Source: Natrinema halophilum (GTDB lineage Archaea > Halobacteriota > Halobacteria > Halobacteriales > Natrialbaceae). From it: a DNA stretch of 64,000 bases. Positions 2,640-61,242 of the stretch are shown piece after piece (positions within the stretch are counted from its first letter, which is position 1; every line of letters starts with the position of its first letter). The translations under genes and the position numbers were made by a program. The stretch lies in contig NZ_CP058601.1 in the NCBI RefSeq assembly GCF_013402815.2, positions 1,798,001 to 1,862,000 of the forward strand, given 5' to 3'. The notes beneath the pieces were generated by a model. That model ran no database searches. It was not told the DNA's origin and saw only the letters and a list, made by a program, of their open reading frames with translations.

Positions 2640-3737
2640 AAATCGGAATGTATCATTACACTACCATTGAGGATACGGTTATTACTTCGCTCATTCCAGA
2701 ACCGTTCAAATTCCGCTCTGTTGCGTTAATGATGGGCACCCAGATCCCGAAGTCAGTCGCCGTCATCGACGCCACACCGCCGAACAATGCCTGGGACTCA
2801 CCGCCAAACGGACCGAGGTTAAAGGTCTTAACTCCACAGACATCAATATCTCTTGTCACCTCCTCGGTTTCGGCGTAGTCAAAGACACCAGGCCTCTCTG
2901 ATGGGGGCAGATGACCGGTGGTTGTCAGTTACTGAGAGCTCACCGTTGATGACACAGGTGTCGTCGTGTGATACGTCGGCCGCAATCACCAATGTCGTCA
3001 TTTGTGATGCTGATGTACGGAAATCTACGCGAGCCTCCTGTGTCTTGACGCTAACAGACCCGATAGTGAGTCCTCCCTCGATTTTTGCAAATTGAGCCAT
3101 TCTGAAATGGGACGGGCCTTCACCATCGCTGTTCCATCGTATACCCTCGGTGTTTGAGTCACTAAGCATCTCTATGAGAGTGTTCTAGATGACGCTCGCG
3201 TCGGTCCCGCCCAACTTGATGCCGTAGGAGCGGCCGGCGCTTCCCGACCCCTGTACGTCGATTTATTCCCCACTCACACTAACGGTGTTTCTGTCTCCGA
3301 TATGTATCGCGGCACCATCGTCAGCACCCCTCAAATGTCTTGATGTGGACCGCACGTGAGTCCCACTCACTCGACGTGCCTGCCGTACTTGTCCTTGAGT
3401 CATACGTATGGAGAATGACCGCCCGTGCGCATTGTTCCCCATACTGTTAGACAATATTCCGAACGGTGTGCTTTCAGCGTGGACACCATATCTAGTGCGC
3501 CCCTCAAATACACTCCGGGTATTGGCATGTCCCGGACACCGGACGACTTTGTATTCGTTGGGCCGTCCAAAGACACTAGGTCCGATACGTGACAGTGGCC
3601 GTTGAAGTCGATGCCGATCATCCTGCCTCTTTAATCACGTCAGACGCGGAACTGCCGGAGCCGTTAGCTGCTCCCTGATACGTCAGAAAAATATCAACAG
3701 TATCCTTAACGTCGGTCGCGTCGAAACTATCGGTCAT
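2640..3737 (-). pseudogene. Decayed gene, possibly a secreted or surface beta-helix protein
   Basis: On the minus strand several frames carry protein-like pieces in order: a start-like MTDSFDATDVKDTVDIF at 3737, then VRDMPIPGVYLRGAL at about 3500, GGADDGAAI-type text at about 3320, TIGSVSVKTQEARVDF at about 3060, and CGVKTFNLGPFGGESQALF at about 2820. The PIPGVYLRGA style and the Gly/Val/Asn-rich repeats recall right-handed beta-helix surface proteins common beside haloarchaeal polysaccharide genes, but I cannot prove the family. Stops and frame changes interrupt it throughout. The neighbours are also decayed, so the whole 1-3.8 kb segment seems no longer under selection. Confidence 0.4.
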
Positions 3738-3831
3738 GATCCCGCTGGAGCGCACTTGACGGGAACCGACGGCAGTTCTATGACTGCGGTCGTTGATATT
3801 TTCCGATTAAGCCTATGAATATGTTCTTGTT

Positions 3832-5640
3832 TCACCCGCTCTGAGACTGGATTGCGTACAGTTCGGCGTACTGTCCGCCCTTTTCCATCAGATCCTGATG
3901 TGACCCTTCCTCGACGATTCGCCCATCCTCAATCGTGTATATCCGGTCCGCGTTCTTGACGGTAGACAGGCGGTGCGCGATACCAACCATTGCGTACTCG
4001 CGGTCCATGCTCTCGATCGCGGTCTGTACCTCCTTCTCGAGACTTGAATCGAGGTTACTGGTTGCTTCGTCAAGGACGAGAACGTCGGCTTCTTTCAGGA
4101 GTGCTCGAGCAAGGGAGACGCGTTGTCGTTGGCCACCGGAAAGTCGAACACCGTCGTCGCCGAGTTGCGTATCCAGGCCATCGGACAGGTCGTCCAAGAA
4201 CTCGTTTACCTTTGAGATCCGACATACTTCTTCGAGTTGACCGTCGGAGACATCTCGATTCCCGATAGTGAGATTATAGCGCAGCGTCTCATTGAAAATG
4301 AACGGATCCTGTTGTACGACAGCGATTTGAGACCTCCAGGCTTCGACATTCATCTCGCCAATAGAGATGTCATTGACCAATATCGCTCCGTCATCTGGTT
4401 CATACATCCGTGCGAGTAGTGAGACGATTGTCGACTTGCCAGCGCCAGATTGTCCAACAAACCCAACGAACTCGTCGCGCTTGAACTCGAATGAGACACT
4501 CCGTAGTGCTAGGTCATCCTGCCCAGCATACGCGAATTCAACGTCATCGAACTCAACAGACTCGACGGCCTCAGGGACCGGCTCCGTTGTGTCGTCGATT
4601 TCGCTGTGCGCTTTAAGCTCGTTGATGAACTCTTGCATCCGGATCAAATGTGGCAGGTCGTTTTCTATCTTATAGAAAATCGAATTAATGTTGCTAGCCT
4701 TTGGACCGAGGCGGAACATCGCGAATAGGAAGATGCCGAGCGATCCCAACGACAAGTCAGCGTACGCGATAGCGAGATAGATGAGGACAAACACCGCGAC
4801 AGCGGTGAGGAGATTGTAGAAGTTTCGGATCGCCTGTTGGTTGCGACGCAGTCGGATGCTGGCGTCAGCGAACTGATTGACCGCGGCTTCGAAGTCTCTG
4901 AACAGCTCGTCTTTCAGGCCAAATAGCTTCGTGTCGCGAATACCCTGCGTGCCTGCCTGTGCGGTCTGCTGAACTCGTTCGTTCGCGTCAGCGACCTGCT
5001 CACCGAGCTCGTACCCGGGCTCTACGACGAAACGGAAAAGCAGGGAGAAACCGCCCAAGAACGCGATAGCAAAAATTGCGAGGGATGGCGACATGACGAA
5101 GGCGACAATGAAGTACATTCCTGTTAAAAAACCCTGTTCGAGAAAGTTTACGACTTCCCGAATGACTTGTCCCGCGTACTCAGCCTGTGTGACGATTGCA
5201 TTCAGAATGTCATCGGAGCCTTCGCGATCAAAATATTCGACGTTTGCGTCGAGGGCATTTCCGAACGAGTCGCTTTGTATCTCTCGCGTATAGTCTACGA
5301 CCAGCGCACCTCGTAGCCAGCGAACGACGAACGTGAGCGACCACCGTATCGTTAAAACGATGCTGACGCCCACAATGACGTATCCGAGCTCAAATGGAAC
5401 GCCGAGCAACTCGTAGAAGTTGACGAACAAGAGGAGGATACCGTCAGCTTCGGCGGTAGGGTTCCCGGATGACTGTATCAGCTCCACGATTGGGAGGATA
5501 AAGCTTAATCCGATACCCTCGAGTAACGCTGCAACCATGCCGCCTATTACTATACCGGTTGCAAACAGCGGCCTGTATCGTGCAACTCGAAGCAACGCGG
5601 CCAGTTGTTCCTTTCTGCTGACGCTCTTCACGTCGGTCAT
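3832..5640 (-). CDS. ABC transporter, fused permease and ATPase (glycolipid flippase type)
   Basis: About 602 residues. The N-terminal half (to about residue 340) is an exporter membrane domain with roughly six hydrophobic helices. The C-terminal half is an ATP-binding domain with Walker A GQSGAGKST at residues 396-404, signature LSGGQ at 500-504, a Walker B LVLDEATSNLD and a switch histidine in GIAHR. This one-chain layout is that of MsbA/PglK-type exporters, which act as homodimers and flip lipid-linked sugars or export lipids. The ATG at 5640 is chosen over an in-frame TTG 15 bases earlier. Lying among glycosyltransferases, it probably moves lipid-linked glycan outward; the substrate is inferred from context only. 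Confidence 0.9.
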   Translation of the reverse strand: MTDVKSVSRKEQLAALLRVARYRPLFATGIVIGGMVAALLEGIGLSFILPIVELIQSSGNPTAEADGILLLFVNFYELLGVPFELGYVIVGVSIVLTIRWSLTFVVRWLRGALVVDYTREIQSDSFGNALDANVEYFDREGSDDILNAIVTQAEYAGQVIREVVNFLEQGFLTGMYFIVAFVMSPSLAIFAIAFLGGFSLLFRFVVEPGYELGEQVADANERVQQTAQAGTQGIRDTKLFGLKDELFRDFEAAVNQFADASIRLRRNQQAIRNFYNLLTAVAVFVLIYLAIAYADLSLGSLGIFLFAMFRLGPKASNINSIFYKIENDLPHLIRMQEFINELKAHSEIDDTTEPVPEAVESVEFDDVEFAYAGQDDLALRSVSFEFKRDEFVGFVGQSGAGKSTIVSLLARMYEPDDGAILVNDISIGEMNVEAWRSQIAVVQQDPFIFNETLRYNLTIGNRDVSDGQLEEVCRISKVNEFLDDLSDGLDTQLGDDGVRLSGGQRQRVSLARALLKEADVLVLDEATSNLDSSLEKEVQTAIESMDREYAMVGIAHRLSTVKNADRIYTIEDGRIVEEGSHQDLMEKGGQYAELYAIQSQSG

Positions 5641-5745
5641 TATTAAGGCTGCCAAACTCTATTCTTAAATAAACTCCGAGTTGACCGGCCCCAGTGACGA
5701 TCGCCAACCGGATTATGTAAGTTGATGAGCGCGAAATAGTCCCGC

Positions 5746-6627
5746 ATGATTACCCTACGCGAAATCTACAAGGGCCTCCGGAAACCGCGTCTCAGATTCT
5801 TTGAGCTATACCGAAGGTTTGACAGGTATGTACTCGGAAATAAGCCAGTCTCGATGCCAGATGAGGACTGGGATACGCTGGTAATCCTCGACGCCTGCCG
5901 GTACGACCTGATGGCGGAGCTCGACCCGTTTGACGCGCCCGTCGAACAAAAGACGTCGCCGTCGACGTACACGCTGGGATACCTCCGGGAGACGTTCGGC
6001 GACGCCGACTTCCCCGAGATCGTATTCGTGACCGCAAACCCGAACTTCGAGTCGATACCGGCCCGCTTCCACGAACGCGTGACGCTCTGGGACGACGAGT
6101 GGGACGAAAACGTGGGCGTCACACCTCCCGAGGCCGTCACCGAGGCGGCGATCGAGACGTATCAGGAGTACCCCCACAAGCGGCTGATCGTTCACTATAT
6201 GCAGCCACACTATCCATTCATCGGAGACCTCGGCCGACAGCTCGCAGAAGAGGGAACGATTCATTACGAGTACGCGCACGGCGATGACTTCTGGAGACAA
6301 CTCGAACAGGACGATGTCGACGAGGCCTGCATCTGGGACGCTTACAAGGAGAACCTGGAACTGGTGATTCCCCACGTCGAGGACCTCCTCGAAGCAGTGC
6401 CCGGTCGAACTGTCGTTACCTCGGATCACGGGAACGAGTTCGGACGATTCGGCATCTATGGCCATCCTGATGGTGCTCATTCGCCGGGGCTCGTACGCAT
6501 TCCCTGGGTCGTCCTCGACGATCAAGAGCGGCGGTCGACCACGTCAGGAACCGCGACCGCTGGTCCCATAGGTGAGGACGACGTCGTCGCCCAACGGCTG
6601 GCAGATCTCGGGTACGCAGACACGTGA
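5746..6627 (+). CDS. Alkaline-phosphatase/sulfatase-superfamily protein
   Basis: 293 residues. A metal-site start WDTLVILDACRYDL (about residues 42-55) and a second metal-site motif TSDHGNEFG (about 225-233) are those of the alkaline phosphatase/sulfatase fold. A candidate nucleophile lies in the Ser/Thr cluster after residue 65 (SPSTYT). The classic sulfatase CxPxR signature is absent, so hydrolysis or transfer of phosphate, phosphoglycerol or sulfate are all possible. It ends in the family-like QRLADLGY tail. It starts 106 bases after the divergent ABC exporter start and precedes a glycosyltransferase on the same strand, so a glycan-tailoring role is likely but inferred. Confidence 0.8.
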   Translation: MITLREIYKGLRKPRLRFFELYRRFDRYVLGNKPVSMPDEDWDTLVILDACRYDLMAELDPFDAPVEQKTSPSTYTLGYLRETFGDADFPEIVFVTANPNFESIPARFHERVTLWDDEWDENVGVTPPEAVTEAAIETYQEYPHKRLIVHYMQPHYPFIGDLGRQLAEEGTIHYEYAHGDDFWRQLEQDDVDEACIWDAYKENLELVIPHVEDLLEAVPGRTVVTSDHGNEFGRFGIYGHPDGAHSPGLVRIPWVVLDDQERRSTTSGTATAGPIGEDDVVAQRLADLGYADT

Positions 6628-6820
6628 ATGTGTGCCCGACGTGTCGACCGAGCGTCGAATTCGAAAGGCGACACTACACGTGGGATGGTTGCACCGGTCA
6701 GAACACCCTGGTCTAGAACGCAGTCGATTCGGGTTGAATGGTCGCCGTTCGCCGCATTACGCCAGGAACTAGGAGAAAGCAAAGATGATATATACGCGTC
6801 TTTTCAATCACAGTAAACTG

Positions 6821-7924
6821 ATGAGGATTTTCTATGATGGGGTTATATTCACTCGCCAACAGTTCGGTGGCATCAATCGAATCTACGAACGGCTAGCCAC
6901 AGAGTTGCCAACGGTCGCACCCGATTCGGTGCTCCGGACGTTCCGGTTCCCGTCGACGCTTGACTCCCATCCGTTCCTCACGCAATCCCGATATCTCATC
7001 CCGAAGTTGGGAGGCGTTCTTCGGGAACTCGACGAGCGCATATTCCTGCCCCGGGCGGTCAACAAGTTCGACCCCGATATCTACCACACGTCGTACTTCC
7101 GTCTCCCAGCGGACATCAACGCACCATCGGTCGTGACCGTCTATGATATGATCCACGAACGGTTCGCCGACGAGTTGGGGAACGCCGAAGCGACGTCGGC
7201 GATGAAGCAAGCGAGCGTGGAGCGTGCCGATCACGTAATCGCAATCTCGAAGTGCACGAAGGATGATCTCGTGAAGTACTTCGATATAGCTCCAGAGAAG
7301 GTGAGCGTCATCCATCTGGCGGCCGATCCGGTGTTCGAACCGGTTGACGACTCCACAGTCTCTCGATTGCGAGCGGAGTATGACCTCCCGGAGCAGTTCC
7401 TCCTCTACGTCGGTCGGCGAGGCGGCTACAAGAACTTCGATACTCTCCTAGAGGCGTACGCCGACTGGGAGTACGCCGAAGACGTGTCTCTTGTCTGCGT
7501 AGGTGGCGGTGAGAAGTGGAGCAACGCAGAAGCTGAGACGATACGACAGGCGAACCTAGAGGAGTCGACGCAATTGATCACCTGGGTCGACGACAACGAG
7601 CTGCGGTCGTTCTACACAGCAGCGACAGCGTTCGTCTATCCCTCACGGTACGAGGGGTTCGGTATTCCGCCTCTCGAGGCGATGCAGTGCGAGACGCCGG
7701 TCGTCGCGTCGAACGTCTCTGCCATCCCGGAAGTCGTTGGGGAGGCTGGTACGTACGTCGACCCGGATGACCCCGCAGACATCAGGCGGGCGTTGTCCGA
7801 GGTCATCTTAGACCCTGAGTATCGTGAACTACTTGTAGAGCGAGGACTTCGTCAAGCGAAAGCCTTCGACTGGCAGCAGACAACGCGACAGACCTACCAG
7901 GTATACGAAAACATTCATGACTAA
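6821..7924 (+). CDS. GT4-family glycosyltransferase
   Basis: About 367 residues from the ATG at 6821 (MRIFYDG). An upstream ATG at 6785 adds 12 poorly conserved residues. The protein has the two-domain GT-B layout: FGGINRIYERL near the N-terminus, a nucleotide-binding half starting with FLLYVGRRGGYKNFD, and the C-terminal EGFGIPPLEAMQCETPVV, which holds the E-x7-E motif of retaining GT4 enzymes. It would transfer a sugar from a nucleotide sugar to a growing lipid-linked glycan on the cytoplasmic side. Its last 8 bases overlap the next gene (ATGACTAA), indicating translational coupling. Donor and acceptor are unknown. Confidence 0.9.
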   Translation: MRIFYDGVIFTRQQFGGINRIYERLATELPTVAPDSVLRTFRFPSTLDSHPFLTQSRYLIPKLGGVLRELDERIFLPRAVNKFDPDIYHTSYFRLPADINAPSVVTVYDMIHERFADELGNAEATSAMKQASVERADHVIAISKCTKDDLVKYFDIAPEKVSVIHLAADPVFEPVDDSTVSRLRAEYDLPEQFLLYVGRRGGYKNFDTLLEAYADWEYAEDVSLVCVGGGEKWSNAEAETIRQANLEESTQLITWVDDNELRSFYTAATAFVYPSRYEGFGIPPLEAMQCETPVVASNVSAIPEVVGEAGTYVDPDDPADIRRALSEVILDPEYRELLVERGLRQAKAFDWQQTTRQTYQVYENIHD

Positions 7925-44701: not shown

Positions 44702-45553
44702 TTAGAGGACGAACGGGACGGGGAGTTCCGGTCGCGCGAGGAGGACGACGAGCCCCGAGATGAGCGACACGGCACCGATACCGACAGCGAGTTCTTCACC
44801 CCAGGACGGGAGGCGTTCTATCGTAACGGCCCCCGTTAGCGCGACCATCCAGACGAGGTTCATCTCGCCGAAGAAGATCATCACCAGGAAAAAGATGCCA
44901 AAACTCGTCAGGACGCACCGGACACCGTGGTTCAGCCCCCGTTGGAGCGCCCGTACTGGACCATCCGAGTGCGGAGCGACTGATTCACAGCACGTCCGTA
45001 AGAACGACCGCTTGAACCGCGACAGTTGGTATAGCCCGGTGAGAACGAGGACGCCACCGATGACCAAGTGTGTGTACTCCCGAGTGACACCGTAAATACC
45101 GCCCGGAAGGACCGCGTTGTAGAGGAGCGGAACGCACGCGGAGAGGAGCCAGACGACGTAGTAGCTACCGAGAAACGCGCCCAGCGCCCGCACCGCGCCG
45201 AGACCCGACCCACGGTACGCGGCGGCGTACTCCCGCGTGAAGCGCGTCATCGCCGGTTGCATCATCGCCCACATCATCACACCCCACATGATCGTATACC
45301 CGACGACCGCTTCGAGCGTTCCGACGTGGAACACGGCTCGTTCCATCGCACCGGGTGCGGCCATCGGAACGTCGGCCGTCATCATCAGCCACGTCATCCC
45401 CGGCATCGGGACGTGACCACCGTACAGGAGCAGCCACCACAGGACGTCAATACCGAGCATGGCGGCGACCACGGCGGTCGTTCGATCGGGATCGACCGAG
45501 AGGCGTTCCGTCGCATCCGCCACCGCAGATCGAAGCCGAAGCGATGCGCTCAT
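44702..45553 (-). CDS. DUF2182 membrane protein, predicted metal-binding
   Basis: 283 residues with about seven membrane helices. A Met-rich stretch (HVPMPGMTWLMMTADVPMAA) near residues 47-66, MWGVMMWAMMQPAMTRF, and a cytoplasmic RFKRSFLRTCCES loop are the DUF2182 pattern; the family is described as predicted metal-binding. The Met/His clusters would suit copper(I). A small copper-type chaperone gene lies 100 bases upstream on the same strand, so a joint role in metal handling is a reasonable inference. Confidence 0.85.
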   Translation of the reverse strand: MSASLRLRSAVADATERLSVDPDRTTAVVAAMLGIDVLWWLLLYGGHVPMPGMTWLMMTADVPMAAPGAMERAVFHVGTLEAVVGYTIMWGVMMWAMMQPAMTRFTREYAAAYRGSGLGAVRALGAFLGSYYVVWLLSACVPLLYNAVLPGGIYGVTREYTHLVIGGVLVLTGLYQLSRFKRSFLRTCCESVAPHSDGPVRALQRGLNHGVRCVLTSFGIFFLVMIFFGEMNLVWMVALTGAVTIERLPSWGEELAVGIGAVSLISGLVVLLARPELPVPFVL

Positions 45554-48063: not shown

Positions 48064-48137
48064 GCCGGTGTAGCTCAGACTGGCAGAGCGAATCCTTCGT
48101 AAGGATTAGGTCGAGGGTTCAAATCCCTCCACCGGCT
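48064..48137 (+). tRNA. tRNA-Thr (anticodon CGT)
   Basis: 74 bases. Acceptor arms GCCGGTG (48064-48070) and CACCGGC (48130-48136) pair fully, with T as discriminator. The D arm is around TAGCTCAG. The anticodon arm AATCC-TTCGTAA-GGATT gives anticodon CGT. The T arm GAGGG-TTCAAAT-CCCTC is standard. It is followed by a region with mobile-element features, and tRNA 3' ends are common integration sites, but I found no second copy of its 3' end in the window. Confidence 0.92.
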
Positions 48138-48849: not shown

Positions 48850-51800
48850 ATGCCAGATCTGGGGACGACTTTCAATTCAATATATGCCAGAATCCAGCAA
48901 CGTCGGGACTTGGAGGAGAGTGAGGTCACCGACGTGTTCACCGACAATGATTTCTTCCAGACGCTGGGGTACAAAGGTATCCCAATCGACGTTCGTTCCG
49001 AGAACCACATCGTTGGTGGAGATCGTCCAGACTACTTCGCGAAGGATGATATCGGAAACGTCGTATTCGTCGTTGAGTTCAAGAAACCAACGCGAGATGA
49101 CGACCTCGGGAGCCACCGGAGGCAGCTGTGGGAGCAGTACGTAGTCCCGCTCAGGGCCGATTACGGTGTGCTGACCGACGGAGAAGAGCTGATCTTCTAC
49201 GAACGGGTCGGGCGAGACAACTATGATCGCCGGTTCCGCGTTAGCCTGAATGAAATCTCAGACGAACAGCTCGCCGAACTGGAACAGCTCCACAAGCCCA
49301 GCTATTCGTTCAGTTCAACTGAAGAGATCGAGGACTACTTCGCCACTACAGAGACTGTCTCAGTCGGGACCAGAGTCGACGGGGAGCCAGTTGGGCAGAA
49401 TGAGTTCATGGATACGTTCCGGCTGGAGCGTGGAACACTGTTCTATCAAATGCTGGAGCACACGTACAGTCTGCTTGAGTACTATCTTGATCAACCGCGC
49501 GACAACAACTTCCCGCGTGATGCCTACGAATTCTGGAGGGAGTACTACGCTCCGGACCCAAGTTGGTACGACCTTCCGGAAGAGTGGCGGGACATCGCTG
49601 GCAGCGCTGCAAATAAACAGAGGGTGATGTTCGCGGTCGAGACCGTTCAGTCGCTACTGGGACGACTGATGTTGGCCAAGGCCTGTGAGGATCAGAACTT
49701 CCCCGGGGTCAACATATCCAGATTCGTACAGACCGAGACACCCGAATTCCGCGGCGAAGTCTCGCCGGTGTCATACATCCACGCCGGACGCGGCCTGATG
49801 GAGCAGATGCGTGAAGAACTTGTCGAGTCTGTGTTCGAGCAGGACATCTACTACTGGTGGACACAGAGTGCTGAGGAAATTGACGAACTTTCCGGACGAG
49901 AGATTAACGAGGAGAGTTGGCCGACTCCGTTGGAGGAATACGGAGAGCAATTCGTCGAATTCCTACTCGCTATTGGCCGGTTCGACTTTTCAGACATCAG
50001 TGGTGACCCACTCGGTCAGCTCTACCAGCAGTACTTCGACCGTCGGACTCGACAGGCGCTGGGCGAGTTCTACACGCCACCAAGCGTGTGTGAGTACGTC
50101 GTCGATTCGGTGGGATACGGCGACGGCGTTCAGTACAGCCGGCTCGTCGATCCCGCCTGTGGTTCTGGAACCTTCCTGGTCTCGGCGCTGGACCGTTACA
50201 AGAACGAACTCGGCACGGAGATGGATCGACCAGCAGCCCTGCACGACCTCTGTAACAGTGCGCGGGTGGTCGGGCTCGACATCCACCCCTTCGCGGTCGT
50301 AATGGCACAGATCCGCTTCATGCTTGAGATTCTCGACGAGTACAAGCGCGCCATCGAGGAGGACCCCGGACTGGTGTTGCGGCGACTTCCCGTGTTCCGG
50401 ACTGACTCCCTGATTGACGAGTCAGAGACTGAAGAGGGCCGTCAGCAGTCGTTAGGAGCCAGCTTCGGTGAGGATACCATCGAGTTTGATATGCCGCTAC
50501 CCATCCGGCGAGGGGAGGAATTCGAGACGATGACCTTCGAGTTCCCACGGTTCAGCGAGGTCCAGTCGTCGACGGCTGGCCAAATAAGTAATCGACAAGA
50601 GTATTTCTCTGTCCTGCTGGCAGTCTTCGACGCGGTCAAGGACCAAGTTAAAGAGGAGGACTACGACATCAGCGAGGATGATCTGGTCGCATATCTCTAC
50701 AATTACTTCTCGTCGGACACTAATGTCGAACAGGTCGCCAGCACGTTCGTCGACACGGCGGAGACGTTCCTCGACATGGTACGGGAACTCCGCGAGGACT
50801 ACAACGACGGACGTCTCCTCAAACTGGTCGAGGACCTCGTTCTGAGTGCCGTCCTCAAGAATAGCATCGACTTCGACTACGTCGTCGGCAACCCGCCGTG
50901 GGTGGCAAAGCAGAACACCCACTCGCCGCCAAGGCAAGAGCGCAGATTGAAGCAACAGTATCTCTCGGCGTGGAAGGAAACCGATCCCTATCTTCAGTTC
51001 ACCGAACGAGGGCTCGGGATGCTACGTGAGGGCGGTTCTCTCGGCTTAGTGGTCTCAAATCGGTTCCTCAGCAACCAGGGTGGCAAGGAGATTCGTGCAC
51101 TACTCGCGAAGAACCAGATCACGGAACTTGTCGACTTCACTGACTACCCAGTGTTTAGCGGCGCGACGAACTACTCGGCAATTCTTACAGTGGAGAAACA
51201 AGTCCCAAACGACGACTGGACATCGTTCGTTGGAAACGGTCGCTTTAAGAACGGACACACGATCGAGGCCGCACGAGTCCGGGACTGGGACGGCGAAATC
51301 CCGGAGTTGGTCGATCAACTGTACGCCCGGGAGCCAACCGAGTCGGTCGACTTCTACGAAATCGACTCACAGCGATTTCAGGGACGAATCCCCCTCCGCA
51401 ACGGGGCGGTGATGACCGAGGAGGTGGAGGAAACGTTCGAGGAATATCAGAACGTCACGGTAACGCGGAACCTTCCTCTGGCGGACATCTGGCCAAACTC
51501 GCCGCCGGAGGAGTACGAACTCGTAGAACGCGTCGAGTCGGAGATGGAAATGCGGCTCGGCGATCGCTCCGTCGTCAGAGACAATGAGCACGAAAATGCA
51601 CCGAATCTGGTAGGAGATGATATCCGCGTCGGGATACAGACCAGCGGTGACGACGCATACATCGTCCACCCAGAAGTTGGTATAGACAAGGAGAACCTCC
51701 ATGAGCTTGACCGAATCACCGTAACCCCTCGCGGAGTTGACAAATCGTACACCGTCGAGACAGACCTACTGAAAATAGATATCACCGGTAAAGATACTGC

Positions 51801-52975
51801 TCGGGTGGCTCCCCGACTGGAGCAACCGACTGGTATTTGTTCCGTACGTACAAGGTGACGAGCGAGCCAAACTCGTTCCCCCAAACCAGTTCGCAGACGA
51901 GTACCCGCGAACATGGGAGTACTTCACGGATGCATCGGTGCTGAAAACACTCTCCGATGAGTCGACGGAGCGTAAGGAAATCCACGCACGACTAGCAGCT
52001 GAGTTCGACATCATAGACAACCGAGATACGGCGACCGGGTACCAGAATACTGAATTGTCCGATGGCGACTATCGAAACCTGTCCGATGTTCTCCGCACGC
52101 AACCTGACGAAGTCTACCAATTAGACGACGACCTGTGGTGGTACCGGTACATGCGACGGCAGAACGTGGAGGTACTACCTGAACCAAAGGTCCTAACTGG
52201 TGATCTCGTCCAATATAACAAGCTGAGCTTCGACGACGCTGGAATCATGGCACCTCACAACGTCAGCGTGTACGCCATCATTCTCCCCAGAGTCGATCGT
52301 CACTCTGTGGCTGCTGTATTAAATTCTGCGTTAGTCGAGTTCTTCCACAAGCAACATTCCCGTATTCACCAGGGGAAGGCTTACAGATACATCGAAGACC
52401 ACACGTCGCAATGGCCACTCATTCGGCCCTCTGGAGAGGAGCGGGACCGCCTCGAAACGCTGGTTGAGGAGATCATACACCTCAAAGACCTCCAAATCAA
52501 GGTCCCGCAGTTCCCAGACCCGTATATCGCTGAAGCACGAGAGAGTGGTAGTGAATTCGTGAATATCTCTTACACTCCTTCGTCCTCTTATCAGGCAGAT
52601 CCGTCAATACAGCCTGACCTGTCTGGTGATCCTATCATCGAACTCTCTGACGGGCAGATCGACGACTCGATCATTGCTAACGATACCGTTGCGGAATACG
52701 TCCGTGAGGCGCTTGAGGGCCGAGAGCTTGAAGCCAACACTCAGGTCTCTATTCTCGTACCGCTAGACATAGATGTTACCGAGGACGCGCTTGATGAATT
52801 CGAAGCTGATTGCGAGGAACTCGAATCAATGGACATCAATGAGATCGAGGCTGAGATAGACAACATCGTCTTCGACCTATACGGAATCGACTCCGAGCGT
52901 CACCGTGAGATGATGCGGCGTTATAACAACCAGTATAAGTCTGTACAACGGATCGACCCAGAAACGGGCGAGTAG
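48850..52975 (+). CDS. Single-chain (type IIG-like) restriction-modification enzyme, frameshifted
   Basis: Two consecutive frames form one protein of about 1374 residues once a single G is removed from GGG at 51803-51805. The order of domains is: PD-(D/E)xK nuclease (P60-D61, E76 and K78 in VEFKKP), a helical region, adenine-specific methyltransferase with motif I DPACGSGTF (D434) and motif IV NPPW (681-684), then a target-recognition-like C-terminal part. As read, the first frame stops at 51856-51858, 17 codons after the shift. The second resumes as WLPDWSNRLVFVPYVQGDER. With the break the enzyme would lack its C-terminal third. It may be a dead gene, a switchable one, or a sequencing error. 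Confidence 0.8.
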
Positions 52976-53068
52976 TAGTCAGCCGCGAAGAGTCGTTGAA
53001 TCGTAGCCGTTTTAGTCGGGATGTGGGGCGAATCAGATGCTACCGAGACACTGTCGAGGGCGTCTAGC

Positions 53069-53242
53069 TCAGCGCCATTCGTCGAGGTGAGCCGCCGCTG
53101 TCGCCGGAGTCGAGAGCCACGCGTCGTCGGTGGTGATGTCGGCGATGATGAATCGCGGATAGCGTCCCGCCTCGTCGATAGAGGCCATGACCTCGCTGCT
53201 GTCCGTGACCAGTTCCGATGCCGCACTCCGGTTCAGCGACAT
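53069..53242 (-). CDS. Small haloarchaeal protein, DUF7556-like
   Basis: 57 residues on the minus strand. It reads SSEVMASIDEAGRYPRFIIA, DITTDDAWLSTP and ends AAHLDEWR before the stop at 53069-53071. The pattern (vMAS.de.g...r.iIADit.ddAWL..p...a..L..wr) matches a widespread family of tiny haloarchaeal proteins of unknown function, DUF7556 as I recall it. Its codon bias is clearly native. It is convergent with the restriction-modification gene. Confidence 0.7.
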   Translation of the reverse strand: MSLNRSAASELVTDSSEVMASIDEAGRYPRFIIADITTDDAWLSTPATAAAHLDEWR

Positions 53243-53455
53243 GATTTGTCAATTGCTGTCACACCTCATAAATATATCGAATCCACGGCAGTGTCACGCG
53301 TGTCGTGAAACCGGACACGGTTCGAGGCCTATCGTGGCCTCCGGATGTGATGTTGGCCCTGGTCTGACACGACACGGAGGGCGTTTGAGCGAGCGATTCT
53401 CACAACTACTCTGACCTCCGACTCAACCCCGAGCGCGCTGACACGCCGAATGGGC

Positions 53456-53889
53456 TCATGTCGTCCAAAATCCATGCTGGCGTTCTTCGATCTCCGTGAG
53501 AACCATCGAGAGTACGTCTCGTCAATCCACAGGATGTGAGGCATCATCGCCTGGTGGTAGTGCATTTGGACCGGGGTGTATGTGGTCACGCGTATTGTGA
53601 CCTGAGAGATGACGATCCCACCGGTGATCAAACGTCCCTTCGTCGTGATCCTCGTGATAATGTCCCGAGAAATCACCGTTTTCGAACCACACTATTTTTA
53701 GGTTGGCTCGTTCAATACTGCTCGGGTAGAACTTAACAGCATAAACACACACCAAACGGTCGGGGCGAACGCGGGTTGATCGCCGATTCGTACGAACTGG
53801 CCATCCGTAGCTAATCGTTCTCTGACGATGTCGAGTCGGTCAAAATCAAAGGGTGCACCGCTCACACCGTCGCCTTCTCCTCGAGTCAT
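53456..53889 (-). pseudogene. Broken partner gene of a winged-helix regulator
   Basis: It starts at the ATG at 53889 as MTRGEGDGVSGAPFDFDRLD and reads well to FAPTVWCV. It then shifts frame (CVYAVKFYPSSIERANLKIV) and continues through WFENGDFSGHYHEDHDEGTF to PPGDDASHPVD, where a TGA stands where TGG (Trp) is expected. The remainder RDVLSMVLTEIEERQHGFW ends at 53456-53458. One frameshift and one nonsense change make it dead. Intact relatives occur in other haloarchaea directly after a winged-helix gene, as here, with ATGA coupling. Function unknown. Confidence 0.7.
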
Positions 53890-54450
53890 ACAGCTGTCCG
53901 CTGGTCGGCAGCATCACCGGACCCAGTCGTCAGCGCTCGTTCGAGCAGCGCGATTCGACGGCGGGAAGTTTTCCATGCGGAAACGTCCTCCCACACTTCT
54001 GCTATCGACTGCTCGGTGGTAGATGCGTGTGCCGTAATTGAGACAGAATCAGGCGACTCAACTCCGAACTGATCGGTGAAGTCTTCGTCTCGCTCTGCTT
54101 CCGTCTCGAGGAGTGCAGGGAGTTCATCGGGACCGTATTCATCTTTGAGTAGCTAGACTCGACGCAGTTCAGATACGCTTGATTGCGCTGGTACATCGCT
54201 GGCGATTCGGTGATTTGTGTGACGATTCCCAGTTGTTCGAACCACTCGAAATACTCGCGAGCAGCATCTACCCCATGGCCCGTGAGATCGGCAACTTCAC
54301 TCGCCATCGCGGGCTATCCAGGCCGAGGACGGCGTCGAAACAGTTGTCGCGTGTCCGGTCACCGTGGACTGCCTCTTCGGGAGACGCCAATGCGTCGAAA
54401 TCCGGCGGCTCTCGTTGGTCGTCCGCATCTGCCGTGCGTTCTGTCTGCGG
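53886..54450 (-). pseudogene. Broken winged-helix transcriptional regulator
   Basis: Pieces read REPPDFDALASPEEAVHGDR, NCFDAVLGLDSP, then in another frame SEVADLTGHGVDAAREYFEW and FEQLGIVTQITESPAMYQRN (the helix-turn-helix region), and again in another frame ELPALLETEAERDEDF and SAWKTSRRRIALLERAL, ending at 53886-53888. This is a haloarchaeal winged-helix protein like the DUF7342 group. At least two frameshifts are needed. Its stop overlaps the start of the partner gene (ATGA), so the two were a coupled pair before decay. Confidence 0.7.
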
Positions 54451-54812
54451 TTCGTTTCCCTGGCACTCGACGACCGGAACACCCTGTTTACGACCCCACA
54501 TATCCTCTGTGTTCTTGCTGAGCACGGTGCCCTCGATACCCACTACGTGAACTCGGCATTGACGTACTACGTGAAGACGAAACAGTGGGACACCCAGTAC
54601 GTGGCCCAACTGCGGAGTGCGTATCTTCCCGACTAATTCGAGAGCAAGACGCACTCGAGAACGAACCCGATCCACGACTCGCTCGAGCCGACGGATCAAT
54701 ACACGGCGGCGATCGGTGTGTACTTCTGTCGGAATCGCCCGCCCCTTAATTGATTTGATACAGGAAGCTATAAGTAACTACCAATGATCTGCGAAATTAG
54801 TGGCGCAGTACC
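54451..54812. other. Stretch with no secure gene
   Basis: About 360 bases. A rightward frame ends at 54634-54636 with protein-like text (TPHILCVLAEHGALDTHYVN, LRSAYLPD), which may be the tail of another decayed gene, but I do not recognise it. AT content rises towards 54800. Confidence 0.35.
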
Positions 54813-54833
54813 GCCAATTTGCGTAAAATTGGC
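54813..54833. repeat. Perfect 8-bp inverted repeat with 5-base loop
   Basis: GCCAATTT, loop GCGTA, AAATTGGC. It lies in AT-rich DNA 46 bases ahead of a chain of coupled micro-ORFs, so it could be an operator or part of their promoter. It has no T run, so it is not a clear terminator. Confidence 0.5.
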
Positions 54834-54878
54834 CGGGTGGTCACAACACCCGACCTGCGTCCCATACGCTCAGGGACA

Positions 54879-55067
54879 ATGTATATTCGAACACCTGCCT
54901 ACGAAACCGTTTCGGTAGTACCGACTAAACAAACCAGCGTCGATCACTTCACGGTGGCTGTCGTCGCAGCGCCACAGTTTCTGGTCCGACAGCCGCTCGA
55001 GGCGCGTTTCACAGCTTCGAGCGCCCCATCACCGAGTGGCGTGGGTCAGGAGGGTGGTTGCAAATGA
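54879..55067 (+). CDS. Possible 62-residue ORF, first of a coupled chain
   Basis: It starts at the ATG at 54879 (MYIRTPAYETVSVV) and continues VDHFTVAVVAAPQFLVRQPL to GVGQEGGCK. The stop overlaps the next start as ATGA at 55064-55067. Codon use is mixed, less G/C-ending than native genes. No recognised family. The overlap with a better supported ORF is the main support. Confidence 0.35.
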   Translation: MYIRTPAYETVSVVPTKQTSVDHFTVAVVAAPQFLVRQPLEARFTASSAPSPSGVGQEGGCK

Positions 55068-55255
55068 CGCCACGAGACCACGACCGAATGCGGGTCCGTC
55101 TCGAGGAACTGCTCGCAGAGATGGAAACGCTCGATCGTCACTTGCTCGCGCCGCTGTCCCTGGGACCGGCGATCACGAACCTCGAGATGATGATCGAGGT
55201 CTACGAGGGTCTCGAGACTACTGGCGAGGATCTTCGTGTGGTGGCCGATGACTGA
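55064..55255 (+). CDS. Small helical protein of unknown function
   Basis: 63 residues from the ATG at 55064, with a Shine-Dalgarno GGAGGG at 55049-55054. Nearly all helical: RMRVRLEELLAEMETLDRHL, then SLGPAITNLEMMIEVYEGLE and an acidic end. Native codon bias. It overlaps the next short frame by 8 bases. The pattern suggests a small coiled-coil or dimerising protein; no family is recognised. Confidence 0.55.
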   Translation: MTPRDHDRMRVRLEELLAEMETLDRHLLAPLSLGPAITNLEMMIEVYEGLETTGEDLRVVADD

Positions 55256-55337
55256 TTCGACCGATGGTCCCACGGACCCGTTCCACCGGATCACGGGCCA
55301 ACTGACCGTGCTGGCAGGGATAGCCCATCCCAGTTAG
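55248..55337 (+). CDS. Possible 29-residue ORF coupled to the previous gene
   Basis: It starts inside the end of the preceding gene (GATGACTGA overlap) and reads TDGPTDPFHRITGQLTVLAG, ending at 55335-55337. It may be a real micropeptide or the truncated head of a longer protein. It is convergent with and touches the end of the minus-strand ORF at 55334. Confidence 0.3.
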   Translation: MTDSTDGPTDPFHRITGQLTVLAGIAHPS

Positions 55338-55615
55338 ACCGCGAGACGGCGGACGGCAATCTCGAGGGCGTTTCCGAGTTCACACGGGTCGGCCACGTCT
55401 ACTGGTTCGACCTCGCCGCCTCGTCCGTCGCGGTCGTCGTCTGACGAGCACCCCAGTAACCCGACACACACCGGTGCTCTCACGACGACCGTTCGGTCTT
55501 CATCAGTGGTCACGATTTCGACGCTCCCCTCGAGGCAGTTCTCCCGTTCCTCGAGAGAGCGATCCGCCGCAGCGGGAGGCCACTGCTTTCGCAGTGACCG
55601 CTGCCACCGCTTCAC
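55334..55615 (-). CDS. Possible small haloarchaeal protein
   Basis: 93 residues if the GTG at 55615 is the start. Text such as WQRSLRKQWPPAAADRSLEE, GSVEIVTTDEDRTVVVRAPV and EVEPVDVADPCELGNALEIA has native codon bias and alternating strand and helix character. The Cys-rich middle (VCVGLLGCSSDDD) could bind metal. The frame stays open upstream, but that part is antisense to the coiled-coil gene at 55668. Family not recognised. Confidence 0.4.
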   Translation of the reverse strand: MKRWQRSLRKQWPPAAADRSLEERENCLEGSVEIVTTDEDRTVVVRAPVCVGLLGCSSDDDRDGRGGEVEPVDVADPCELGNALEIAVRRLAV

Positions 55616-55667
55616 GAACAGAGTGCACCGCGAGCCGATTCCACTCGATTCTGCACACGTACTATCC

Positions 55668-55907
55668 ATGATAGCCGATACTCCCACCGACGTCGCACCG
55701 ACATATGACCGACTCGAACACCTCGAACGCCGAATCGGCGCCCTCGAGACCGAAAACGAAAGCCTTGGAGAGACGATCGACCAGCAGGCCGACTGCATCG
55801 ATACCGTCGAAGACGAACTCGAGACGGTCGAAGCAGAGAACGAACGACTCAGAGAGCTACCACCGAGACGGTTCACCGAAATCTGGGGAAGAAATGTCCA
55901 GGATTAG
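55668..55907 (+). CDS. Small coiled-coil protein
   Basis: 79 residues from the ATG at 55668. From residue 12 to 64 it is one continuous heptad pattern (YDRLEHLERRIGALETENES, IDTVEDELETVEAENERL), so a dimeric or trimeric coiled coil. A basic end, RFTEIWGRN, follows. Short coiled-coil proteins of this kind are frequent in haloarchaeal mobile regions; no specific function can be given. The lodA-like gene begins 83 bases later. Confidence 0.55.
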   Translation: MIADTPTDVAPTYDRLEHLERRIGALETENESLGETIDQQADCIDTVEDELETVEAENERLRELPPRRFTEIWGRNVQD

Positions 55908-55990
55908 CTTCGAAATGGTGTCCCGAGGCCAGCAACTCGCGTTTGCTTATTAGTGTTAACAATTATTTGTGAAGGAGTGGTTGCGGACGC

Positions 55991-58900
55991 ATGGGGATAT
56001 CGGATGTCTCGATTCACCCGGCCATAGGCATCGCCCGCGTGGGCAACAGCGACCAGTTCTTTATCGGGCCCGAGAAGCCCTGGGAGACGCTCGAGCCCAC
56101 CGGCGGGTTCAAGGACGACACCTGTCGGGTGAAGCGCCAAGGCGCACGCTTTCGCCTCTTTGCCTCCTACGACGATGATCGCGATCCCACGGAGTTGTCG
56201 ACCGATGACGTCGAATCCATCGAGTGGAACGTCACGCTCGCCAACAAGAAGGCAACGACCTACCCCGATAGGCGGAATAACCTCAGCGAGTGGGACCGAA
56301 TCAGCGAGGATGAAGCCTCAATCAAACCGGGGACCGTGACGGTCACCGGCGGCAACGACAGGGCAGTCGTCTCGGAGGACCGGATCGTTTTGCCACGGAA
56401 GAAAGATCCCGACGAACTCGGCTCGTTCCCCGGGATGGCGGACGTCTCACTCGGAGAAATTCGGACCGACAGCCACGGCCGGCTGATCGTCCTCGGGGGG
56501 AAGGGAGAGTCGGATACGCCACACGATCTCTCGAAGGAAACCTTCGCAGACAGCGACTTCCACAACACAGGCTGGTACGACGACACGGCCGACGGAGCGG
56601 TGACAGCGACGGTAAAGACGAATGAACAGACATTCGAGGAGATCCCTGCGTGGGTCATTGTCGGGCCCCCGAAATTTGCACCGGGGATCGACAATATGGT
56701 CACGCTGTACGAGCGCCTCTACGACGTAATGGTCGAGGCCGGCTACGAGAACCCGCCATCGAAACCGTCGTACACGGAACACATTGCGCCCGTCCTGCAG
56801 CGGGCAAAAGAGGTCGAATGGATCGCTTCCCCGTCGCATGCGACCCACACTGGGGACATGGAGGGAATCTCGGCCGCCTGGGACCACCCCGTCGGGAAGA
56901 CCCACGACGTGATCCGGAACCGCGTGTTCGAGAAGTTGCGCAAGCCATTCGCGTTCAACGCTCATCATTCCGGTGACCCGGCAATGCGTATCTCGCCGGG
57001 GACCCGAGTCGTGTTCGACTGGGTGTCCTACAGTCACGATGTCACCGTCGAAGACCAGCCCTCCGGAGCGTCCTGGACCGGCCATCCGACGACCGAGAAC
57101 AGAGGCTTCTCCGTTTCACACACGTTCACCACCGAAGGGGTGTACACGTTCTACTGTGCAAACCACGTCAGTCCGTGGGGCATGAAAGGGGCTATCGTAG
57201 TCGGGTCCGACACTGCGGCGGACTTCGGCGACTGGTTCACCGACGCGCCACGGGGAGGTGCGACACCCACCTTCGACGGTTCGACAGCTGATCGCACCGG
57301 TCGATCAAAGGTTACCGTCGAGGTCGGTACGTACGTCGGGGACATGCCACGAATCGCGGGCGACGACGCCCACCTCCCAGAGACGTATCTCGAACTGTTC
57401 CAACAGTGGAAAGATAACGACTACATCGACGACTGGAGCTCGGACTGGGACGACGGTCCCGATCCGCCAGCGACAGTGACCCACGCGGGACTGGACAGGG
57501 CCGCACTCGAAAACGCGATGGGGGGTGCATTCTTCCCGGGGATCGAGACCGGCGGACTCATCGAGTACCTGCCAATCGACCAGTTGCCAATTCTGGATCC
57601 GACCAACTACCAGGGGCCGTTTAGGCTCGATCACGACGCCGTCGATCCCGGGGATCTGACCAAGTACATGGCGGTCCCGTGGCAGACGGACTTCTTCGCC
57701 TGTGGCTTCGGGACCTGGTGGCCGGCGTCGCGACCGATGGAGGTCCACCCACAGGGGCGGAACACGGAGAAAGACTGGGCTCGCGACCTCATCCAGTCTC
57801 AGCGGGGCAACGATACGGCCAACATGGTCGAGGACTGGCACAAACTCGGCTTCGTCGTCGAGCAGGGCGAGGAGTACGTCGAGGTCGATCGGTGTCTGAA
57901 ACAGGTGCCCTCGATCACGCTACTGACGACGAGTATCGACTTCGGGGACGTCCCCCACGGTCCGATGGGATCGCGGACGACGAAACGGGCTATCGTGTTC
58001 GAGGTGAATGCGCCGACCGCTGATGTCGAACTAGAAATCACGAAGCAACCGACCGAACAGGCAAACATCCGTACTCCAAAAACACGCGGGTCAGTCACGC
58101 AAACGGCGACCAACGAGATCAAGACGATTCGATTCCCCGTCGAATACGACACGGACATCGGTGATACGGATATCCAGGCGACGATCGAGATTTCGGCCAC
58201 GAACAGCAGCGGCAAGTGGACGATCGACGTCACGGCGTCGACGATCGACTGGGAGACGACGGCGGTCTCGCTCGTCCTCGATCGGTCGGGGAGCATGAGT
58301 GAGTCAAGCGGCGACACCCGAACAAAACACGACACGTTGCAGGCCGCAGCAAAGACGTTCGTCAGATCAATGCTCGACGGATACGGCGTGTCGCTGGTCG
58401 GGTACAACCACGAGGCGAGCGCTCTGCAAGACGTCCGGGAGATCGGAACCGACGTCTCCGGTGGGACGTCCGTCAGGGACGCCACGATCGACGAGATAGA
58501 ATCCGGACTGACCCCCTCGGGCGCGACATCTATCGGAGACGGCATCAAGATCGGCCGGAAAACGCTCAATCAGGTCGGCCAGTACGCCCATGAGTCCATG
58601 GTGGTGCTTACGGACGGAAAAGAAAACACCGCCCCGTACATCGCCGACGAGGCCGGAACCGTCGACGAACGGACGTTCTCCGTGGGCCTCGGAAAGCCCG
58701 AAAACACGAGTGCGCCGGCCCTCGAGACGCTCTCGGGCAACACTGGCGGCTATCTACTCGTCACGGGCGAAGTCGACACCGAGGATCAGTTCCGACTGGA
58801 GAAGTACTTCCTCCAGATCCTCTCGGGGTTAACGACCGCCGAGGTCGCCCTCGATCCCGAGGGGACGCTCCAGGAGGGGGAACAACACCGAATCCCGTTT

Positions 58901-60065
58901 CAGGTGACTGACGCCGACACTGGCCTCGACATCATCCTGTTGACACCGTACCCGCAGGTCGTCGACTTCCGACTGGAGACGCCCATCGGCAACGTCATCG
59001 AGCCGTGGCGTGCCCACGCGGACCCGGCCATGAAGTGGGTCCTCGGCGACCGGGTCACCTACTACCGCCTGTCGCTACCTGCCGAGGTGGATCAGGATCG
59101 TCTCGAGAGCGACGGCCAGTGGCACGTCATCATGAGCATCGGCCGTCCGGAGACCAAACCCGACCGCGACGAACTCGACGAACTCGAGCGGATCGTCGGC
59201 CGGCGCGACGATGAGACGCGAGGTGCGCCGGTTCTGGCCGACGAGCGCCAGGAGTACGAGCACCGACTCGAGGACGTCCTGTCCGTAGCGACCGGGGTGG
59301 GGGAGGGCGTTCCGGGAGGGAGAGGAGGGGGGAGACGAGTCAACAAACGGTCTGCTCACCCAGACAGCGATCCCAGACGTACAGGAGGCCGGGTTGGACT
59401 ACTCCCTGCTCGTTCACAGTTACTCAAAGCTCTCGATGAACGCTTCGCTGGACCGAACAGGGTACGAACCGGGTGCAAAACTCCACGTCATTTCGTCAGT
59501 CACTGAGAGCGGAACACGCGTTGACAGCGTCGATGTTTGGGCCGACGTGACCCGTCCAGACGGGACGAGCGATCGCGTTCACCTCGAACCGGCGGACGAC
59601 CGGTATCGCGGGACGGTCCACACCTCGTCGCCCGGGACCTACCATATGCGTGTCCAAGCGCGCGGTCACACTTCGAAGGGAATCCCGTTCCAACGGGAAC
59701 AACGCGTAACCGGCGCCGTCTGGCACGGCGGCGACCACGACGCGGAGACGAGTGCCAGCGGCGGCGGGCCGGCCGCCCGCGAACGCGCCCGCCGTCGTCG
59801 CCTCTGTGAGACCCTCCACTGTCTGCTCAGCGAAGACGGGGCACTGACCGAGGAGTTCGTCGACCGCCTGGAAGCGGCGGGGATCGACGTCGATGCCATC
59901 CGTTCTTGCGTCGGCGCGTACTGTCACGACCTGAACCCCGAACGGATCGAAGAGGGCGGCGCTGCTCCCGACCATCCGCCGGAACAGTGGCACGAGCGCG
60001 ATGTCTTGGAGGATGTCGAAGACCAACTCCGGCGCGTCCTCGACGACCTTGGCATCGACCGCTGA
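55991..60065 (+). CDS. LodA/GoxA-type CTQ quinoprotein with inserted cupredoxin and fused VWA domain
   Basis: The N-terminal SIHPAIGIARVGNSDQFFIG, KRQGARFRLF and WNVTLANKKA are LodA-family. The CTQ region is VPWQTDFFACGFGTWWPASR: D567 and C571 keep the spacing of LodA Asp512 and Cys516. W616 in VEDWHKLGFVV is my candidate for the crosslinked Trp. Between the halves (about 318-405) lies a halocyanin-like domain with type-1 copper ligands H349, C389, H392 and M398. A VWA domain follows (MIDAS DRSGS at 764-768, T846, D875; about 757-945), then beta-sandwich-like domains. One extra G in G6 at 59327-59332 breaks the frame; removing it joins the last 245 residues, giving 1357 in all. As written, the first frame runs to 59506. 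No signal peptide is seen. Confidence 0.88.
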
Positions 60066-60072
60066 CGGCGGT

Positions 60073-61242
60073 ATGTCCGCGAATACCAATCTGACTGACG
60101 ATCGCGGTCGCTGTGAGGTGGCGGTCGTCGGCGGCGGGCCTGCCGGTGCGGTCGCTTCCCGGATCCTCGCCAATCGTGGTCGGGCGGTCGTTCTCGTAGA
60201 GGCCACCCGGTACGACGACTGGCGTCTCGGGGAGACACTCCAGCCGTCGATCCGTGAGCCCCTGACAGCGCTCGGCGTCGGAGAGGCATTCGACGCGATT
60301 CCGACGGTCTCCTCGAACGGGATTCGACGGTACTGGGGGGACGACGAGCCGAGGTCTCGGACGTTCCTCGCGAACCCGTACGCGGGCGGGTACCACGTCG
60401 ATCGGACGGCATTCGACCGGATGCTGGGTCTAGCCGCCCGCAACGCAGGGGCGACGCTCCTGCTTGGGGCACGTGTGGATGCGTGTGAACCCGATTTCGA
60501 CAGCCAAAGGATCTCACTTTCGCTCGATACGACAGCCGCATTCGCCGAAACGCTACCACTCGTGTCCGACGACCAGGACAGAATCAGCGCCCGAGCAGTC
60601 CTCGACGCCTCGGGCAGGACGGCGACTGTCGCACGCCGGTTGGGGGCTGACCGCGACGTCCACGATAAACTGGTCGGTGCCGGCGCGACGTTCCGGGCCG
60701 ATCACGATGACTGTGGCCGATACACGCTGATAGAGGCAATTCCGGATGGGTGGTGGTACTCGGCCCCGCTTCCCGGCGATCAATTGGTCGTCGTGTTCTT
60801 TACCGACGCGGATCTGCTCGGTGTGCGCAGTGGCGCTGACCCGTGGCGTGACGCGCTGAACGCGACCAGCGAAACAGCCGACCGCACGGCGGCGGCAACG
60901 TTCGAACAGGGGCCAGCCATTGCGCCAGTCCTGAGCCATCGGCTCGACCGTGACCTCGACGATCAGCCGTGGCTTGCCGTTGGGGACGCCGCGATGGGAG
61001 TCGACCCACTTTCGGGGACCGGCATCGAACGGGCTATCGACACCGGCGTTCGCGGTGCGATCGCGATCGACCGGTGGCTCGATGGATACCGTGATCAGGC
61101 CGAAACCTACGAAGATGACCTCGATGCCGACTTCAGCGAGTATCTCGAGCGCCGAGCGACATACTACCGGCGAGAGGACCGCTGGCCAGACACGGCGTTC
61201 TGGCGACGGCGTCACGATCCCGCGACAATCGACACGTCCTGA
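60073..61242 (+). CDS. LodB-like FAD-dependent oxidoreductase (quinone-cofactor maturation)
   Basis: 389 residues from the ATG at 60073, 7 bases after the lodA-like stop. EVAVVGGGPAGAVASRILAN is the FAD dinucleotide motif (G20, G22, G25). RLGETLQPSIREPLTALG and YHVDRTAFDRMLGLAA are typical of the halogenase/lycopene-cyclase-like flavoprotein group. AVLDASGRTATVARRLGAD and WLAVGDAAMGVDPLSGTGIE complete the FAD site. In Marinomonas the flavoprotein LodB is needed to form the CTQ cofactor in LodA; size, family and adjacency all fit the same role here. A free-standing oxidase on small molecules is the alternative. Confidence 0.85.
   Translation: MSANTNLTDDRGRCEVAVVGGGPAGAVASRILANRGRAVVLVEATRYDDWRLGETLQPSIREPLTALGVGEAFDAIPTVSSNGIRRYWGDDEPRSRTFLANPYAGGYHVDRTAFDRMLGLAARNAGATLLLGARVDACEPDFDSQRISLSLDTTAAFAETLPLVSDDQDRISARAVLDASGRTATVARRLGADRDVHDKLVGAGATFRADHDDCGRYTLIEAIPDGWWYSAPLPGDQLVVVFFTDADLLGVRSGADPWRDALNATSETADRTAAATFEQGPAIAPVLSHRLDRDLDDQPWLAVGDAAMGVDPLSGTGIERAIDTGVRGAIAIDRWLDGYRDQAETYEDDLDADFSEYLERRATYYRREDRWPDTAFWRRRHDPATIDTS

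Follow-up and report, generated by a model that had tools for sequence, protein, structure and literature searches.

A LodA-like quinoprotein of a haloarchaeon with a permuted halocyanin domain inside its catalytic chain: a possible electron relay

The quinohemoprotein amine dehydrogenase (QHNDH) is a cysteine tryptophylquinone (CTQ) enzyme with electron transfer through heme. CTQ is also formed in the LodA family, where in LodA itself it derives from C516 and W581 (PMC4417212). A survey from 2015 found LodA-like genes to be absent from 602 archaeal genomes and described vWA-fused LodA proteins in two actinobacteria, Amycolatopsis vancoresmycina (H480_25957) and Cryptosporangium arvum (PMC4417212). 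In addition, a tryptophylquinone enzyme paired with a type-1 copper protein is known, as the tryptophan tryptophylquinone (TTQ) of methylamine dehydrogenase passes electrons to amicyanin (PMC8489226). This pair and QHNDH, however, consist of separate proteins of an unrelated enzyme architecture. Here we analyze a window of 64,000 nucleotides from the haloarchaeon Natrinema halophilum which contains, at positions 55,991 to 61,242, a LodA-like gene in which a copper-binding (cupredoxin) domain of the halocyanin type lies within the catalytic chain, followed by a gene for a LodB-like flavoprotein. The locus had been singled out in an earlier note made from the sequence alone.

The domain anatomy of the locus (Table 1) can be regarded as nearly certain. 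The LodA-family catalytic domain recognised in the earlier note was borne out, as both parts exceed the curated Pfam cut-offs (180.2 versus 26.3 bits for LodA_N and 70.4 versus 25 bits for LodA_C). A structure model of residues 1-640, based on an alignment of 56 bacterial and viral-contig relatives, has a confident LodA core with blocks of predicted local distance difference test (pLDDT) values over 90. This core matches the crystal structure of the lysine epsilon-oxidase LodA (2ymw) with a VIA Z score of 38.9 over 448 residues at a root mean square deviation of 2.6, and that of the glycine oxidase GoxA (6byw) with Z scores of 37-38. The fold, the CTQ cysteine and tryptophan, an aspartate and the maturase partner are common to these two enzymes and the window's protein, although neither LodA nor GoxA has a cupredoxin domain.

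C571, W577 and the nearby D567 are invariant in all 57 LodA proteins of the alignment. The earlier note had named C571 correctly but had paired it with W616, a position at which 16 of these proteins have F, Y or I. As W577 is invariant and aligns with the second tryptophan of the LodA motif WWP, which is W581, W616 was ruled out as the CTQ tryptophan and the prediction of the cofactor stands with W577. Sequence and model thus support a CTQ-forming quinoprotein of the LodA family predicted to oxidise amines or amino acids. The equivalog cut-offs were missed both for lysine 6-oxidase (NF038172, 162.9 of 600 bits) and for the GoxA glycine oxidase (NF038173, 224.3 of 750 bits). The site of C448 in LodA and H583 in GoxA is F515 in this protein and likewise phenylalanine in several VWA-fused relatives, so that the substrate probably differs from those of LodA and GoxA.

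Between LodA_N and LodA_C, a Pfam Copper-bind match was found at residues 331-404. The stretch between the LodA anchors R309 and P453 comprises 145 residues, as compared to 14-30 in the relatives compared at this loop, and the roughly 130 extra residues are halocyanin-like (E 1.1e-12 against the NCBIfam halocyanin domain). Residues 330-446 are 57% identical to the Halarchaeum halocyanin WP_255494145 (E 4e-28), and identities to halocyanins of other haloarchaea are 52-62%. The closest counterparts are tandem halocyanins encoded upstream of ba3 oxidase genes (L008, L097-L111), which match at 52-62% over the whole insert including the repeat junction. The match sets in midway through one repeat and continues unbroken into the next, where it takes in the leader and the first strand (VTVEVG), indicating that the insert is a single tandem-halocyanin period taken out of register and hence, in sequence, a circular permutant. 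Whereas the tandem proteins have two ordinary domains with a leader and a membrane part, here one permuted period lies inside an enzyme.

In the insert the first strand of halocyanin consequently stands last, and profile matches to plastocyanins start only at about residue 20 of plastocyanin, past its first strand. The earlier note had described a complete cupredoxin domain with the ligands H349, C389, H392 and M398; these were recovered, but the strand order is permuted and not the usual one. A dedicated model of the insert, with an alignment drawn from core cupredoxins of viral contigs only, has a cupredoxin core with pLDDT values of about 70-88 and Z scores of up to 6.7 (VIA) to pseudoazurin and plastocyanin. 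Foldseek matched it to plastocyanin, pseudoazurin and amicyanin with a probability of 1.00 (E 2e-4 to 1e-3); one of the matches is the amicyanin chain in the complex of methylamine dehydrogenase and amicyanin (1mda). The equivalent of the first halocyanin strand, at residues 440-444, is modeled as a strand at low confidence, and within the model of residues 1-640 the insert has pLDDT values below 50. A permuted cupredoxin fold is therefore suggested by the sequence and weakly by the models. No circularly permuted cupredoxin stood out as a precedent in a limited literature search.

Behind the LodA core follows a VWA domain whose metal-ion-dependent adhesion site (MIDAS) start, DRSGS, is common to the bacterial relatives. 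The fusion of a VWA and further domains claimed in the earlier note is indeed present, but this layout is shared with bacterial LodA-VWA proteins. These are colinear with the window's locus (LodA, VWA, mostly a C-terminal tail and then a LodB-like gene), but lack the copper domain and have 14-22 residues in place of the 145-residue loop. The tail is homologous to theirs, although the 1357-residue protein assumed in the note is not encoded in one frame: at about 59320-59361 the alignment with the bacterial relatives passes from one frame to another. The LodB-like gene starts 7 bases past the stop of the frame-shifted tail, exactly as had been noted. Its best matches are the LodB, GoxB and QhpG maturases (E 2.9e-70, 2e-60 and 7e-50), all under the equivalog cut-offs, and its homologs adjoin lodA in nearly all loci compared. 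In a metagenome-assembled genome of Thermoanaerobaculia (L025, Acidobacteriota; 2745-5945 and 5887-7527), the VWA and tail form a separate gene directly upstream of lodA. This split counterpart of the fusion suggests that LodA and the VWA-tail protein act jointly.

LodA_N was found in the window's genome only, among overlapping samples of 292 genomes of the class, 125 of the family and 393 of the phylum. LodA-VWA-tail proteins without a copper domain occur in Lysobacter penaei (L015), Amycolatopsis and Kribbella (L020-L022) and the Deltaproteobacteria SZUA-265 (L017), and a shorter LodA-VWA form, also without it, in Actinocrispum (L023). The window's LodA core groups with the VWA-fused proteins in the tree (support 80/59, with no starred branch). 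Copper-bind was present in one of the 57 LodA proteins, that of the window. Close LodA loci of bacteria, about 80 in number, had no cupredoxin, and no Copper-bind was found in the LodA loci of 22 further genomes, for which 754 genomes on the Actinomycetes and Myxococcota side were searched. The literature search returned no relevant paper on a LodA protein with a cupredoxin or on archaeal CTQ-dependent enzymes. The earlier view that no LodA protein of this layout had been described thus holds for the cupredoxin but not for the vWA fusion, published in 2015 (PMC4417212); in the sources searched, what is new is confined to the halocyanin insert and the host being an archaeon, as the LodA-VWA-tail arrangement already exists in bacteria.

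In all 15 nearest halocyanin loci (L097-L111), the halocyanin gene immediately precedes genes matching subunits II and I of a ba3-type oxidase, which points to an electron carrier as the source of the insert; tandem halocyanin genes have this position in many haloarchaea. Among the genomes listed for the window's genus, none yielded a strong halocyanin of this type, and a recent origin from the host's own halocyanins was ruled out by best own-genome matches of only 37-42%. Insert-based scans of viral sequences gave no relative and a single-protein scan of genome contigs no match. That the host is an archaeon, as had been assumed, is evident from archaeal TATA-binding protein (TBP) and Trm5 genes next to the locus on contig C1 of a 4.8 Mb genome, from the haloarchaeal insert and from the acidic proteins, and contamination with bacterial DNA is thereby ruled out. 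All parts of the protein have an acidic composition of the halophile type, which together with the 40% divergence of the insert argues against a recent transfer or insertion.

The domains, CTQ pair, copper ligands, permuted order and relatives are shown by computation; copper loading, transfer from CTQ to copper, the acceptor, the role of the VWA domain and the substrate are inferred. The LodB-like flavoprotein would mature CTQ from C571 and W577, and the substrate would reduce it. The two electrons could then leave CTQ singly via the tethered type-1 copper towards an outside acceptor, either another halocyanin or a membrane acceptor, replacing or competing with O2, while the VWA domain may tether the enzyme to a partner or surface. 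The kinship of the insert to halocyanins encoded upstream of ba3 oxidase genes fits such an electron-acceptor role; halocyanin is a one-electron carrier of haloarchaea, and a halocyanin/CbaD fusion ties it to a terminal oxidase in Halobacterium (PMC8305020). As a whole, the explanation of the locus as a haloarchaeal LodA-VWA-tail quinoprotein whose loop holds one halocyanin period as an electron relay is put forward tentatively, with a chance not far below even. The relay function from CTQ to copper, for which amicyanin and the TTQ of methylamine dehydrogenase are the precedent, is plausible but by a little the less probable outcome.

The state of the copper site speaks to both sides of this question. 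All four ligands align with columns that are invariant in 14 halocyanins, and 32 of the 38 positions invariant in these relatives are kept, as compared to 38 of 70 majority matches elsewhere. This suggests that the insert stayed under constraint, although some of its divergence may be older than the insertion. Several observations weigh against an electron relay. The ligand loop is Cys-x2-His-x5-Met and thereby one residue longer than the x4 spacing of 48 out of 48 halocyanin motifs, and the donor-invariant Y387, P391 and L393 near the copper are replaced, so that three of the six losses fall within the ligand loop. Ligand-loop length varies among cupredoxins, in which Cys-x2-His-x4-Met is common but not strictly defining, and the altered loop may reflect either a tuning of the site or its relaxation. 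No signal peptide was found, the reading frame opening 6 codons ahead of MGISDVSIHPAIG, nor is one evident in the bacterial relatives of the LodA protein; as ordinary halocyanins are exported proteins, it is doubtful whether this one would be loaded with copper in the cytoplasm. Furthermore, the chimera is a single case, so that comparative conservation is lacking, and with its tail out of frame the gene may be decaying. As a separate observation, a LodA-like protein of Methylobacterium bullatum (L005 4375) starts with MKRRDFLIGASALGLASSSFAKA, which resembles a signal for twin-arginine translocation (Tat); judging by this sequence, Tat may serve to export some members of the family, in contrast to the protein of the window.

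The missing signal peptide and the altered loop would also suit an ordinary LodA-type oxidase in which the halocyanin is a tolerated passenger of a surface loop, without copper or electron exchange, and in which O2 reoxidises CTQ with release of H2O2. LodA and GoxA are themselves oxidases (PMC4417212), and the natural length variation of this loop among relatives implies that it tolerates insertions. We consider this unlikely but deserving of attention, as the four ligands and most halocyanin-invariant positions have been kept despite about 40% divergence, part of which perhaps arose before the insertion. The frame break between VWA and tail, together with the single occurrence, could also mean a chimeric gene that lost its tail by a frameshift after transfer and insertion and now decays without function. 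Apart from this break, however, some 1110 codons stay in frame and the LodB-like gene is open, the GC content at third codon positions (0.71-0.81) is like that of the neighbors, the composition is of the acidic halophile type, the catalytic and copper residues are intact and the break falls in a G-rich run, a kind of sequence prone to sequencing errors; we therefore hold decay to be improbable.

Finally, the copper domain might serve in cofactor biogenesis by supplying copper for the first hydroxylation of the CTQ tryptophan, which in LodA appears to be copper dependent (PMC7876137). About 10 kb upstream of the locus there is also a gene of the PpoB2 family (44705-45553, minus strand; PF09948, a copper chaperone according to Pfam), whose link to the LodA locus is only possible and for which no evidence connecting it to the LodA gene was found. 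As type-1 sites hold copper tightly and for electron transfer, and as bacterial relatives have the CTQ residues and the maturase without a copper domain, a function in biogenesis is very improbable.

Other features surround the locus. At 48850-52975 (plus strand), an Eco57I-like DNA methylase of 1002 amino acids precedes a TaqI_C-like specificity protein. The pair lies close to a tRNA-Thr (48064-48137) in a stretch of lower GC content (0.48-0.58) and resembles a small restriction-modification island next to the LodA locus. The roughly 3 kb directly upstream of the locus (52980-55990) are without a convincing gene and are possibly relic sequence.

Table 1. Features of the LodA-halocyanin locus (positions within the window)
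Feature	Position	Strand	Remarks
LodA-halocyanin-VWA open reading frame	55991..59506	+	1171 aa as read; last ~60 codons, past about 59320, out of frame
LodA_N, residues 9-224	56015..56662	+	Pfam PF17990, E 6.9e-53
Halocyanin insert, residues ~320-449, between LRKP319 and G450DMP	56948..57337	+	left edge uncertain by ~10 residues
H349, predicted Cu ligand	57035..57037	+	invariant in 14 halocyanins
C389-x2-H392-x5-M398, predicted Cu ligand loop	57155..57184	+	C-x2-H-x4-M in relatives
C-terminal end of insert (SKVTVEVGTYV region)	57296..57337	+	counterpart of first beta strand of halocyanin
LodA_C, residues 450-584	57338..57742	+	Pfam PF18417, E 1.8e-19
C571, CTQ cysteine by homology	57701..57703	+	invariant in 57 LodA proteins
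W577, CTQ tryptophan by homology	57719..57721	+	invariant in 57 LodA proteins; aligns with LodA W581
VWA domain, residues 761-876, MIDAS start DRSGS at D764	58271..58618	+	Pfam PF13519 (VWA_2), E 6.1e-9
Frame break, G-rich linker	59320..59361	+	one protein across both sides in bacterial relatives
C-terminal tail (YtkA-like/filamin-like, then Cys-containing end)	59361..60065	+	other frame; homologous to bacterial tails
LodB/GoxB-type flavoprotein maturase, 389 aa, FAD motif GGGPAG	60073..61242	+	NCBIfam LodB, E 2.9e-70

With this locus, LodA-like quinoproteins are now extended to Archaea. The out-of-phase slice suggests a route for insertion into a loop, since a tandem repeat that is cut out of register has its ends near each other. 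That a tryptophylquinone oxidase evolved into a dehydrogenase linked to respiration by way of a permuted halocyanin, as the first built-in type-1 copper relay of a CTQ enzyme and the first archaeal enzyme of the LodA family, is a possibility which we hold with clear reserve. If the copper does take the electrons of CTQ, a natural oxidase would have been rewired to a respiratory carrier within one chain, which is directly testable, and the electrons may be delivered to respiration in place of the production of hydrogen peroxide.

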